DNA of 57,326 nucleotides from Actinomycetota bacterium (GCA_030840805.1 JAVEDU010000037.1:1-57326); one strand, 5' to 3'. Counted from the first letter of the stretch, positions 6,155-17,179 are shown. Numbers and translations are program-made. The notes: generated from the sequence alone by a model not told the origin.

Positions 6155-7918
<1,764 letters not shown>

Positions 7919-9993: not shown

Positions 9994-11265
9994 TCAGCTG
10001 ACGAGGCCCGCCTCGCGCGCCGACTTCAGCGACGGGTCGATCCGGTGGGTCCACGACACCGACAGGGCGTCGATCGTCTTGAGGCCCTCGCCGGTGTTCA
10101 GCACGACGGTCTCGGCGTTGCGGTCGATCTGGCCGGACTCGACCAGCTTCTTCAGCACCGCCACCGTCACGCCACCCGCCGTCTCGGCGAAAACGCCGGT
10201 GGTCCGGGCCAGCAGCGCGATGCCCTCGCGGATCTCGTCGTCGGTGACCGACGCGATGGCGCCGCCGGTACGCCGGACCGCGTCGAGCGCGTACGGGCCG
10301 TCCGCCGGGTTGCCGATGTTCAGGCTCTTCGCGATCCCGGTCGGCTTGACCGGCTGCACGACGTCGTGGCCGTTGTCGAACGCGGTGGCCACCGGGGAGC
10401 ACCCGGCCGACTGCGCGCCGAACACCTTCCAGTCCGACTCCGGCACGAGGCCGATCTTCACCAGCTCGGAGAACGCCTTGTCCACCTTGGTCAGCAGCGA
10501 ACCGGACGCGATCGGGATGACCACCTGCGGCGGCAGGCGCCAGCCGAGCTGCTCGGCCACCTCGTACCCGAGGGTCTTCGAGCCCTCGGCGTAGTACGGG
10601 CGGACATTCTGGTTCACGAACGCGGTCGACTCGAAGTCGTCGCTCTCCTGCAGCTCGCTGGTGAGCCGGTTGACGTCGTCGTACGAGCCGTCGACGGCAA
10701 CGAGGCGCGGGCCGTAGATCGCGCTGTTCACGATCTTGCCCGGCTCCAGGTCACTCGGGATGAAGACGGTGGCCTGCAGGCCGTTGCGCGCGGCGTGGGC
10801 GGCCACGGAGTTCGCGAGGTTGCCGGTGGAGGCGCAGGCCACCGACTCGAACCCGAGTCCGCGCGCCGCGGTGAGGGCCACCGAGACGACGCGGTCCTTG
10901 AAGGAGTGCGTCGGGTTGGCGCTGTCGTCCTTCACCCACACCGGCGCGGTGAAGCCGAGCTCGGCGGCAAGGCGGTCGGCGCGGATCAGCGGCGTGAAGC
11001 CCGGGTCGAGCGTGACACGGGTGGCCGGGTCCTGGCCCACCGGCAGCAGGGCGGAGTACCGCCAGATGTTCTGCGGGCCGGCCTCGATCTGTTCGCGGGT
11101 GACCGCGCCCAGGATGGCCGGGTCGTACGCGACCTCGAGCGGGCCGAAACACTCGGCGCAGGCGTGGATCGCAATGAGCGGGAACTCGGCGCCGCAGTTG
11201 CGACAGCGCAGCGAGGACGCGGGCGACGGCGGGATCGCGGTGGGGGCATCAAGCAGAGACGTCAT
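9994..11265 (-). CDS. thrC: Threonine synthase
   Basis: A 423-residue PLP enzyme converting O-phosphohomoserine to threonine. It has an N-terminal zinc-ribbon-like segment (CRNC near 21-24 and CAEC near 36-39) and the PLP-lysine motif NPTHSFKDRV near residue 121, followed by ACASTGN and the glycine-rich phosphate loop. The N-terminal Cys pairs mark the longer class I-like form. It is monocistronic here. The leader is a SAM riboswitch whose closing stem abuts the ribosome site GGGAAGG. Confidence 0.95.
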   Translation of the reverse strand: MTSLLDAPTAIPPSPASSLRCRNCGAEFPLIAIHACAECFGPLEVAYDPAILGAVTREQIEAGPQNIWRYSALLPVGQDPATRVTLDPGFTPLIRADRLAAELGFTAPVWVKDDSANPTHSFKDRVVSVALTAARGLGFESVACASTGNLANSVAAHAARNGLQATVFIPSDLEPGKIVNSAIYGPRLVAVDGSYDDVNRLTSELQESDDFESTAFVNQNVRPYYAEGSKTLGYEVAEQLGWRLPPQVVIPIASGSLLTKVDKAFSELVKIGLVPESDWKVFGAQSAGCSPVATAFDNGHDVVQPVKPTGIAKSLNIGNPADGPYALDAVRRTGGAIASVTDDEIREGIALLARTTGVFAETAGGVTVAVLKKLVESGQIDRNAETVVLNTGEGLKTIDALSVSWTHRIDPSLKSAREAGLVS

Positions 11266-11279
11266 GGGCGAGGCCTTCC

Positions 11280-11402
11280 CTCATCTTTCCCGCTCATGGC
11301 GGGACGGACTTAGCACCTGTCGCGTGCGGCCTCAGACGTCGAGTACTCACACGATGGTTGCCGGGGCTTCACCGGGCCGGTCCCTCTGCCCCTCTGGATG
11401 AG
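11280..11402 (-). promoter_or_regulatory. SAM riboswitch (S-box type) in the thrC leader
   Basis: Read on the minus strand, the leader has the S-box hallmarks: an AGAGGGGCAGAGGGACC strand, then GCCCCGGCAACC, a variable P3 arm, AGGTGCTAAGTCC, a short P4 hairpin (CCCGC/GCGGG) and AAAGATGAG. CTCATC (11402-11397) pairs with GATGAG (11285-11280) to close P1. The ribosome site GGGAAGG starts at the 3' end of P1, eight bases before the thrC ATG, and no separate terminator stem fits between, so control is probably at translation. Confidence 0.9.
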
Positions 11403-11485
11403 AATTGCTGTTCGGTTGTGCGTCGAAGTGTACGTGATGCCGGAACCCCCCTCAGCGGGGGCGGCGGTGACCTGCATGACAGGGT

Positions 11486-13481: not shown

Positions 13482-14333
13482 TCAGCTCACGACGTCCTTC
13501 CGGGCGAACGCGCGCCACGCCAGCAGGAGGAACACGGTGGCGTACAGCAGCGCCGAGATCGCGCCCTTCGCCATGTCCTCGTACTGGAGCGGCGAGGAGA
13601 ACACGCCGGTCCAGGCGAGGTTGTACGCGGTCGGCAGCACGAACCGCACGCTTTCCAGCGCCGGCACCAGGTCGAGGATGTTGGAGACGATGTACAGCAT
13701 CACCGCGCCGCCGACGGCGAGCAGCGGCTGGTCCGTCCGCACCGAGAGCAGGAACGCCAGCGTGCCGGGAATCAGCAGGTGCACCAGCAGGAACCCGGTC
13801 GCGAGCGCGAGCAGTCCGAGGGACGTCCACGGCGCCACCTCGGCACCGATCGGGGTGCGCAGCGGGTGCCAGCCGTACACGAGCGTGCCGCCGACCACCG
13901 CGACCGTCATCAGCAGGACGACGGCGGCGGCGGAGGTGGCCGCGCCGACGAGCAGCTTCTGGCGCAACAGCCGGGATCGCGGTACGGGGAGCGCCAGCAG
14001 GTAGCGCAGGCTGCCCCACGAGGCCTCGCCCGCCACAGTGTCACCGCAGAACAGCGCGACCACCACCACGACGAGGAACGTGGCCGACGCGAACAGCGTG
14101 AAGGCCGCGAAGTTCGGCCCGCCCGCGGTGGCGACGTCGACGAGGCTGGCCCCGCGCTGGGACCCCCCGTCGTCCGGCCCGCCGAGCTGGAAGGCCCCGA
14201 GCAACAGCAGCGGGAGCAGCGCCAGGAAGCCGAAGCCGTACTGGGTGCGGCGGCGGGTGAGCTGGCGGCGCAGCTCGGTGGTGAAGGACAGCGTCCTCCC
14301 CGGCTGGTAGCCGGGTGCGGCGTCGACGGTCAC
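13482..14333 (-). CDS. ABC-2 type transporter permease
   Basis: A 283-residue integral membrane protein with about six hydrophobic helices (FGFLALLPLLLLGAF, FTLFASATFLVVVVVALF and others) and the cytoplasmic entry EASWGSLRYLLALPVPRSRL typical of ABC-2 permeases. Its GTG start overlaps the stop of the hydrolase/ATPase fusion by four bases, so the two are translationally coupled and must form the transporter. The cargo is unknown. Confidence 0.9.
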   Translation of the reverse strand: MTVDAAPGYQPGRTLSFTTELRRQLTRRRTQYGFGFLALLPLLLLGAFQLGGPDDGGSQRGASLVDVATAGGPNFAAFTLFASATFLVVVVVALFCGDTVAGEASWGSLRYLLALPVPRSRLLRQKLLVGAATSAAAVVLLMTVAVVGGTLVYGWHPLRTPIGAEVAPWTSLGLLALATGFLLVHLLIPGTLAFLLSVRTDQPLLAVGGAVMLYIVSNILDLVPALESVRFVLPTAYNLAWTGVFSSPLQYEDMAKGAISALLYATVFLLLAWRAFARKDVVS

Positions 14334-17179
14334 TGCTTGTCTCCTCCCACGAGAGTGAGGAACACGTCCTCGAGTCGCCGCCGCGGCGAGACCCGGTCGA
14401 CGCCGACCCCGCCCTCGACGAGCTGGCGGACGACCTCGATGCGGCCGGTGCCGTTGAGCGACGGGTCGAGGTCGACGACCACGCCCCCGTCGGAGCTGTG
14501 CGCGCGGGTGACTCCGGTGGCCCCCGCGAGCACGCGCAGCGCCGCATCGGTGTCGTCCACGCCGACCAGCACCGACGACGACTCCCCGGTCACCTCGGCC
14601 ACCGTGCCGGCCGCGACGAGCGTGCCCTGGTGCATGACCACGACATGGGTACAGGTCTGCTCGACCTCGGCGAGCAGGTGGCTGGAGACCAGTACCGTGC
14701 GCCCGTCGGTGGCGTATCGCCGGAGCACCTGCCGCATCTCGGCGATCTGCGGCGGGTCGAGCCCGTTCGTCGGCTCGTCCAGCACCAGCAGGTCCGGCAG
14801 GCCGAGCATCGCCTGGGCGATCGCGAGTCGCTGCCGCATGCCCTGGCTGTAGGTCTTGACCTTGCGTTCCACGGCACTGCCGAGTCCGGCGATCTCCAGT
14901 GCCTCGGCCAGGTACGAGTCGGCGTCGGGGCGGCCGGTCGCACGCCAGTACAGCCGGAGGTTGTCCGTTCCGGACAGGTGCGGCAGGAAGCCGGTGCCCT
15001 CCACAAAGGACCCGAGCCGGGACAGCACCGGCGCCCCGGCGCGGATTCGGTGGCCGAACACCTGGATCTCGCCGCCGGACGGCCGGATCAGGCCCATCAG
15101 CATGCGCAGCGTCGTGGTCTTGCCGGCGCCGTTCGGGCCGAGGAGCCCGAGCACCTGACCGCGCTCGACCGTGAAGGTCAGGTCTCGCACCGCGACGAAC
15201 CCGTCGTCATACGCCTTGGAGAGGTCGCGGATCACCAGCGGCCGGTCCGCGTTCTCCGGGTCCACGGTCGAGGACACCCGGCGCCGGCGTACCCGGGCGA
15301 CCAGCGCACCGACGGCCAGCGCCAGGGCGAGAACCAGGACGAGTCCGACGAGGAGGCGCGTCCACAGGCTGCCGGTGGCCGCCAGCGGGGTCGCCGGGAC
15401 CGTCGGGAGCGTGAGGTCGCCCGCGGCCGCCACCTGGTAGGTGGTGGGATCGGTGGGCAGCGCGTACGCCTGGTCGGTGGTGGACACCGCGAGCCGGAGC
15501 CGCTGGCCGGCCTCCAGCCGGTACGCGATGGCGGGCAGCGCGACGCGCACGGGCTCCGCGGCATCGAGCGTGCGCGGCAGGCCGGTCAGCCGCAGCGGTG
15601 CCACCAGGCCCTGCGGCAGCGTGGACCGGCCGTCCGGCCCGACGCTGTACAGCTTGACGAACAGCACCGCCTCGCCGGTCGCAGACGCGGCACGCAGCCG
15701 CACGGTCGGGGCGCCGACGACGTCGACGGCCCGGTCCAGCGGGCCCGAGCCGAAGGAGGCCACCTGACCCGGCACGTCGATCGTCGCGCCGCCGACGAGC
15801 GCGCCCGCGGCGCCGAGCCCCGGGACGGTCGAGATCGCGGCCGGGGAGCCGCCGGGCGGCGCCGCGATCGTCTGCGGCGGCCCGGACAGGGTGATCCGGC
15901 GCGGGTCTCCGCTGCCGGCGAGCCCCGGGTACGCCGGGGCGCTGAAGCCGGTCGAGGTGACCCGGCCGGTGGAGAGGTTCAGGCCACCGGAGTTGCTGAA
16001 GGTGAACGAGGTCCCGCCCGAGCCGGCCTTTTTCACGTACCTGTCGAGCCACTGCAGGGTCAGGAACCTCACCCGGTCCTGGTCGGCCTGCGACCCGCTC
16101 GCGTCGTGGCCGCCGGAGTACCAGGCGACCCGGACCGGCGTGCCGTTCGCCGCGATGCCGCGGGCGTTCGCGTCCGCCTCCGCGAGCGGGAACAGCGAGT
16201 CGGCCTGCCCCTGCACGAGCAGGGTGGGCGCGGTGATCCGGTCGAGGACGGACTGCGGGCTGCGCCGGTCGAGCAGGGCCTGGGCCGACGGCGTGGCGCG
16301 GCCGGTGGTGGCGATCTCGAGATACATCCGGCAGATCTCGGCGGTGAAGCGGCCGCACTGCGGGTCGGCGGCGGGCGGCGCGGCGCGGCGCGGACCGCCG
16401 GACGCGGGGGCACCGGACGAGCTCGGCGCGGGTGAGCCCGACGCATCCGGGGCCGCGGCGCCGCCGCCGAGGATCGCGGCCGGGTCGAGTCCGCTGCTGC
16501 CGAAGAACAGGCCCGCCCACGACCTCTTGAACACCCCGGACGTGGCCGGGCCACCGTCGGAGTTCGGGAAGAACGCGCGGGACAGGCTGTTCCAGGTGAT
16601 CTGCGGGACCACCGCGTCGACGCGGGGGTCGTGGCCGGCGAGCAGCAGCGCGAGGCCGCCGCCGTACGAGCCACCCACCACGCCCACGCGCGGGTCACCG
16701 GGCCGGTCCTTCTGGACCTGGGGCATCCCGGCGAGCCGGTCGAGCAGCCGACGGGCGTCGTTGACCTCGTAGGCGGGGTCGTCGAGCCCGATCCGGCCGC
16801 CGGAGCGGCCGAAGCCGCGCGCGGTCCAGGTCTGCACCACGTATCCCTGGCCGGCCAGCTCCTTCGCCTCGGTGGCGACGCTGTCCTTGGTCCCGCCGAA
16901 GCCGTGGGCCAGCAGGACGGCGGGCGCCGGGTGGGCCGAGGTCGCGCTCCGCGGGACGTACAGCCCGGTGTCGAGGGTGACCGGCTCGTCGCCACCCGGA
17001 CCGGACCGCACGGTCACCATCGCGTCGGAGCTGCCGTACGGCTCACCGCTGGGCCAGGCAGCCCAGGTGATGCCGGCGGCGACCAGGACGGCCACCACGG
17101 CGCCCGTCACCACCCGCCGGCGGACGGAGGGGCGGGACAGGGCGGCACGCAGCCGGGCCGGGCGGGAGGGGAGGGCCAC
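14330..17179 (-). CDS. Fusion of S15/CocE-type alpha/beta hydrolase with ABC transporter ATPase
   Basis: A 949-residue protein in five parts. A signal-anchor helix lies near 23-42. An alpha/beta hydrolase of the Xaa-Pro dipeptidyl-peptidase/CocE group covers about 60-385, with nucleophile motif GGSYGG near 170, Asp in GQADSLFP near 325 and His in SGGHDASG near 356. A beta-rich X-Pro C-terminal domain covers about 390-600, a second helix about 607-632, and a complete ABC ATPase about 645-949 (Walker A GPNGAGKTT, signature YSQGM near 776, Walker B LLVLDEP near 799). The hydrolase would lie outside and the ATPase inside. The downstream permease completes an ABC-2 exporter. Substrate unknown; possibly export coupled to hydrolysis. 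Confidence 0.92.
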   Translation of the reverse strand: MALPSRPARLRAALSRPSVRRRVVTGAVVAVLVAAGITWAAWPSGEPYGSSDAMVTVRSGPGGDEPVTLDTGLYVPRSATSAHPAPAVLLAHGFGGTKDSVATEAKELAGQGYVVQTWTARGFGRSGGRIGLDDPAYEVNDARRLLDRLAGMPQVQKDRPGDPRVGVVGGSYGGGLALLLAGHDPRVDAVVPQITWNSLSRAFFPNSDGGPATSGVFKRSWAGLFFGSSGLDPAAILGGGAAAPDASGSPAPSSSGAPASGGPRRAAPPAADPQCGRFTAEICRMYLEIATTGRATPSAQALLDRRSPQSVLDRITAPTLLVQGQADSLFPLAEADANARGIAANGTPVRVAWYSGGHDASGSQADQDRVRFLTLQWLDRYVKKAGSGGTSFTFSNSGGLNLSTGRVTSTGFSAPAYPGLAGSGDPRRITLSGPPQTIAAPPGGSPAAISTVPGLGAAGALVGGATIDVPGQVASFGSGPLDRAVDVVGAPTVRLRAASATGEAVLFVKLYSVGPDGRSTLPQGLVAPLRLTGLPRTLDAAEPVRVALPAIAYRLEAGQRLRLAVSTTDQAYALPTDPTTYQVAAAGDLTLPTVPATPLAATGSLWTRLLVGLVLVLALALAVGALVARVRRRRVSSTVDPENADRPLVIRDLSKAYDDGFVAVRDLTFTVERGQVLGLLGPNGAGKTTTLRMLMGLIRPSGGEIQVFGHRIRAGAPVLSRLGSFVEGTGFLPHLSGTDNLRLYWRATGRPDADSYLAEALEIAGLGSAVERKVKTYSQGMRQRLAIAQAMLGLPDLLVLDEPTNGLDPPQIAEMRQVLRRYATDGRTVLVSSHLLAEVEQTCTHVVVMHQGTLVAAGTVAEVTGESSSVLVGVDDTDAALRVLAGATGVTRAHSSDGGVVVDLDPSLNGTGRIEVVRQLVEGGVGVDRVSPRRRLEDVFLTLVGGDKQ

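Follow-up and report, generated by a model that had tools for sequence, protein, structure and literature searches.

Within the window, the stretch of 57,326 nucleotides from an Actinomycetota bacterium that was analyzed as a whole (GCA_030840805.1 JAVEDU010000037.1:1-57326), we identified a gene predicted to encode a serine hydrolase and an ABC ATPase in a single membrane-spanning chain, followed by a gene for a separate ABC-2 permease (Table 1). As judged from sequence, the fusion is real and conserved, and it is apparently uncharacterised. Its open reading frame runs through 949 codons without interruption and has strong coding composition (GC3 0.95), and of its in-frame starts only the GTG at 17179 retains the basic N-terminus and first helix. 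Three Pfam domains, all scoring over their curated cut-offs, lie along the chain: Peptidase_S15 (residues 67-330, 6.7e-16), PepX_C (466-580, 3.7e-15) and ABC_tran (665-805, 1.2e-28). A first-pass annotation of this DNA had described a hydrolase and an ABC ATPase joined through a helix in one chain, with the hydrolase outside and the ATPase inside, and a permease coupled by a 4-base overlap. The single frame, the Pfam domains and a match to TIGR00976 bear out the first of these claims, the helices and their flanking basic residues support the second, and the third is confirmed by the GTG start of the permease, which shares the four bases GTGA with the stop of the fusion. Its further suggestion, that such a chain would link hydrolysis outside the cytoplasm with export or with some mechanical step, is plausible.

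Table 1. Features of the fusion-permease pair, with positions counted from the first letter of the window
Feature	Position	Strand	Basis
Gene for the 949-aa fusion: TM1 - CocE/S15 hydrolase - TM2 - ABC ATPase	14330..17179	-	single ORF, Pfam, NCBIfam
First membrane helix (TM1), aa 19-37, basic N side, predicted N-in anchor	17069..17125	-	hydropathy, flanking charges, alignment position conserved
Predicted extracytoplasmic hydrolase, aa 67-580 (S15/CocE catalytic domain + PepX_C beta domain)	15440..16981	-	Pfam, TIGR00976
Second membrane helix (TM2), aa 609-627, basic C side	15299..15355	-	hydropathy, flanking charges
ABC ATPase domain, aa 647-949	14333..15241	-	Pfam ABC_tran, motif conservation
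ABC-2 permease, 283 aa, ~6-7 membrane helices	13482..14333	-	ABC2_membrane_2, GTG start

Both halves of the chain carry intact active-site motifs. The hydrolase scores 78.4 bits on the NCBIfam model CocE_NonD (TIGR00976), whose cut-off is 66.3, and its catalytic triad, Ser171, Asp327 and His358, is invariant in 39/39 fused sequences, as is Tyr172, which follows the nucleophile in a G-x-S-Y-x-G motif. An identity as X-Pro dipeptidyl-peptidase (PepX) was rejected, the curated model NF003780 giving 17.6 bits against a cut-off of 642. By sequence profile, the closest solved hydrolases are 8yzo and 8yzn, both titled ‘Lipase’ (PaL), with E of about 1e-37 and an alignment that continues through the beta domain. 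Searching by fold with the model of the hydrolase, which is of low confidence (mean pLDDT 52), returned lipase, CocE, alpha-amino acid ester hydrolase and X-Pro peptidase, a result used only as agreement with the profile search. The fusion thus shares with the CocE/NonD enzymes of TIGR00976 (cocaine esterase, alpha-amino acid ester hydrolase, lipase PaL) an alpha/beta-hydrolase with a C-terminal beta domain, the Ser-Asp-His triad and the G-x-S-Y-x-G motif. In CocE, the side chain of Tyr44 contributes to the oxyanion hole. Those relatives are free enzymes, however, whereas the fused hydrolase has two membrane helices, an attached ATPase and a conserved pair of cysteines.

The predicted topology, with the hydrolase on the outer membrane face and the ATPase in the cytoplasm, is well supported. 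Basic residues flank both helices in such a way that, by the positive-inside rule, the N-terminus and the ATPase would both lie inside and the hydrolase outside. The hydrolase segment usually contains two cysteines only, which lie in a C-G-R-F-x(4)-C motif (Cys275 and Cys283); 37/39 fused sequences have the two, and the sister pair L147 and L148 has neither. Since the cysteines are kept or lost together, as a disulfide would give, the pattern points to a hydrolase that sits outside in an oxidising setting. L147 and L148 come from related genomes that have lost both cysteines while retaining the catalytic triad, and this loss was probably a single event, so that the pair offers support for a disulfide rather than proof. 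AlphaFold models, built from four input sequences only, are of low confidence (pLDDT 48 for the full fusion and 52 for the hydrolase alone); the low-confidence model of the fusion contains a helix at residues 603-631. The distance from the end of TM2 to Walker A is nearly constant, at 51-61 residues in most fused loci.

The ATPase half carries Walker A (681-688), Glu727 at the Q-loop position, the signature (778-784), Walker B (Asp801-Glu802) and His834, and six of its residues, Lys687, Ser778, Gly780, Asp801, Glu802 and His834, are invariant in 39/39 fused sequences. A glutamate occupies the Q-loop position in 38/39 of them and also in unfused relatives; we take it to resemble the ‘E-loop’ of the lantibiotic-immunity ATPases (LanF). 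The nearest NCBIfam models are drrA (TIGR01188, 185.9 against a cut-off of 312) and galliderm_ABC (TIGR03740, LanF, 173 against a cut-off of 310), neither of which the ATPase reaches. The permease matches Pfam ABC2_membrane_2 (3.6e-13, 49.9 bits against a cut-off of 27.2), and no large outside domain is seen in its hydropathy profile. It adjoins the fusion in 39/39 fused loci examined, and of the 22 loci that allowed the overlap to be measured, 19 have one of exactly 4 bases. In its ATPase subfamily, its glutamate at the Q-loop position and its separate ABC-2 permease in the same operon, the system resembles the DrrAB, BcrAB and LanFE(G) exporters. The ATPase subunits of those exporters, however, are soluble and carry neither membrane helices nor an enzyme on the outside, whereas the fusion has both.

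The fused form is widespread and ancient in the actinobacteria. Strong matches to the fusion occur in 31/41 genomes (the source genome and 40 relatives), where the only broken frame belongs to G002, a 74%-complete draft. An even sample across the order gave exactly one fused match per genome in 61/81 genomes and 31/41 genera, with frames of 849-1521 residues open and without stops. A phylum-wide sample of 198 genomes contributed 14 other genomes with the fused form, as counted from the match table: six come from one genus-level group of seven, whose members mix in trees with named Streptomyces loci, and 8 of the 14 belong to other actinobacterial classes. Nonomuraea bears the fusion, a contig scan gave at least three full-length matches, which among the matches listed are all Streptomyces, and only two plasmid records reached at least 80% coverage, both of them actinobacterial. 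A fusion-permease pair is also borne on the Tsukamurella tyrosinosolvens plasmid NZ_LR134452.1 (L190), which annotates it as ‘alpha/beta fold hydrolase’ and then ‘ABC transporter permease’; here too the two genes share 4 bases, and ~1.1 kb upstream of the pair, beyond a divergent gene, is a gene for a MarR-family regulator. No true two-gene ortholog pair was found in the order and phylum-wide surveys. The first-pass annotation had held that orthologs consistently encoded as two genes would undo its reading; the single frame in those 61 of 81 genomes of the order contradicts such a two-gene state. A local fusion or sequencing artefact was rejected, since dozens of genomes from several classes share the fused frame. 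The fusion is mostly absent from one family, f7 (G008, G021, G033, G133, G187 and others; loci L180, L181, L185 and L186), in which G008 and G033 instead have S15 proteins that stand alone and whose N-terminal regions are long and of low complexity.

Unfused relatives give some insight into how the chain may have arisen. All fused loci fall on one side of a branch in the hydrolase tree (support 77) and in the permease tree (support 90). In the ATPase tree the fused locus L140 groups with the unfused pairs L153 and L154, but the AU test does not reject one clade of fused loci (p 0.35), and we read the three trees as being in agreement. Pairwise distances of hydrolase, ATPase and permease correlate at 0.82-0.88, which fits parts inherited together but is a range that plain vertical descent would also give. 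L153 and L154, from genomes G090 and G128, are ATPase-permease pairs very near the fused family that lack the hydrolase, and no hydrolase relative was detectable in these two genomes; they would either predate the fusion or have lost the outside domain. The source genome encodes a further relative, an unfused S15/PepX_C hydrolase with a membrane helix at each end (L170:6650-8878, plus strand, contig C29), which adjoins succinyl-CoA ligase genes, and the same setting is found in G010 (L056:2567-4678). This anchored paralog has the N-terminal helix, S15 and PepX_C domains and C-terminal helix of the fusion but neither ATPase nor permease, and the L170 protein is a probable relative of the pre-fusion hydrolase. 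The likely building blocks would thus survive, as an anchored S15 hydrolase and as an ATPase-permease pair without a hydrolase, and their existence indicates that either half can work alone. The simplest reading would be one ancient joining of a hydrolase with an ATPase-permease pair.

From the domains, motifs, topology, partnership and co-inheritance, which are read from the sequences, we infer transport, the kind of substrate, cleavage of the cargo and any coupling of the two activities. The reading we favor, to which we give somewhat less than an even chance, is a DrrA/BcrA/LanF-like exporter whose cargo, an amphiphilic ester or amide, is cleaved by a hydrolase tethered at its outer face. 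The two genes would encode a membrane machine, an ABC-2 exporter assembled from two fusion chains and two permeases, in which each ATPase subunit would hold its serine hydrolase flat on the outer face of the membrane through its own pair of helices. ATP would drive the outward movement of an amphiphilic compound (a drug, a lipid or something lipopeptide-like) from the membrane or the cytosol, by analogy with the DrrAB, BcrAB and LanFE(G) pumps, and the tethered hydrolase would cut an ester or amide bond of the compound at its exit. Such a cut could block the compound from slipping back, amounting to detoxification, or free it in its final form. The system is single-copy, vertically inherited and not in biosynthetic clusters, so general detoxification or envelope upkeep is in our view likelier than a dedicated biosynthetic step. 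More tentatively, and rather doubtfully at present, ATP use inside and covalent hydrolysis outside might be two strokes of one cycle in a core, vertically inherited actinobacterial system. If that were true, export could not run backward, since the cargo would be destroyed or matured as it left, and the substrate would be a conserved endogenous or environmental one.

Fusion may, however, do less than this. The chain could simply anchor the hydrolase and equalise two activities that serve one broad role, such as envelope stress, with no direct hand-over of substrate and no mechanical coupling between the halves; we consider this unlikely, if still worth serious attention. That each half also occurs alone, as in the anchored S15 proteins and the L153/L154 pairs, is what such loose tethering would lead one to expect, but the fused form persists across several actinobacterial classes in which no true two-gene counterpart was found, and the nearly fixed length from TM2 to Walker A is more than loose anchoring requires. 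The same short, fixed tether between membrane helix and ATPase would suit a closer, mechanical or regulatory coupling, in which ATP binding shifts TM2 and thereby gates the outside hydrolase and the permease is no true exporter. FtsEX, which has been proposed to gate cell-wall hydrolases by mechanotransmission (PMC6705773), offers the idea, and the solved relatives lend it some color: among solved bacterial proteins the ATPase matches NosF, an ATPase serving an outside protein, across the full domain, and the permease profile, which has no significant match in the PDB, finds NosY as its sole hit there (E 0.16). We nevertheless regard this coupling as improbable. FtsEX has an FtsX-type permease with large outside loops, whereas the permease here lacks such loops and belongs to ABC2_membrane_2, a family rich in exporters; the relatives of the hydrolase act as free enzymes, and unfused ATPase-permease pairs persist without any hydrolase to gate.

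The closest functional precedent comes from natural-product clusters. In ZmaM, and judging by sequence in EdeA and PamJ too, a prodrug peptidase outside the cytoplasm is fused to an ABC half-transporter (PMC9889268); like the fusion, these proteins place an outside serine hydrolase N-terminal to ABC transporter parts in one chain. By analogy, the pump might export a natural product or lipid in an acylated precursor form, from which the hydrolase would remove the acyl group to yield the active product, and the CocE, AEH and PaL relatives do cleave both esters and amides. The differences are considerable, though. The peptidase of ZmaM, EdeA and PamJ has a ClbP-like S12/beta-lactamase fold unrelated to CocE/S15, and the Pfam search of the fusion found S15/CocE with no match to that family (PF00144); their half-transporter is in the same chain, whereas the fusion is accompanied by an ABC-2 permease encoded by a gene of its own; and they lie in natural-product clusters, whereas the neighbors of the fusion are not biosynthetic and vary between families. 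A single-copy gene that is near-universal in most families of the order is also a poor fit to a cluster-specific step, and prodrug activation seems to us quite improbable, marginally more so than mechanical gating. Searches of the open-access literature turned up no paper in which an S15/CocE hydrolase is linked to an ABC-2 ATPase. The statement in the first-pass annotation that no characterised example is known therefore holds for this exact pair of domains in the literature found, but not for the kind of arrangement, of which ZmaM is an example and, judged by sequence, so are EdeA and PamJ. Joining an outside hydrolase to ABC parts is already known; the pairing of S15/CocE with an ABC-2 ATPase is, as far as we have found, new.

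Our favored reading, an exporter with its hydrolase tethered at the exit, bears on a common actinomycete system, present in genomes that group with named Streptomyces, one homolog of which is annotated merely as ‘alpha/beta fold hydrolase’. As the fusion pairs transporter and enzyme one for one, the substrate of one half would probably reveal that of the other, and a shared substrate would be a rare handle on orphan ABC-2 exporters. Should the activities prove coupled, a single machine would join ATP use inside with catalysis outside in one chain.

The neighbors of the fusion-permease pair are varied household genes (purE, a CDC48-like gene, an amino-acid permease gene, LytR_C) that differ between families, and no linkage to a biosynthetic cluster was seen at the loci whose neighbors were inspected. 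A groEL gene lies ~3-4 kb from the pair in L039, L041 and L057 and ~5.7 kb away in the window (6155-7783); its presence near the pair in several families suggests an old shared neighborhood. Elsewhere in the window, a SAM (S-box) riboswitch at 11278-11404 (minus strand, 82.8 bits) is positioned directly 5' of a gene for a PLP-dependent enzyme of the PALP family (9994-11265, minus strand, 423 aa), which by eye is threonine-synthase-like. Control by SAM of such a PALP-family gene, and not of a methionine gene, would be noteworthy.
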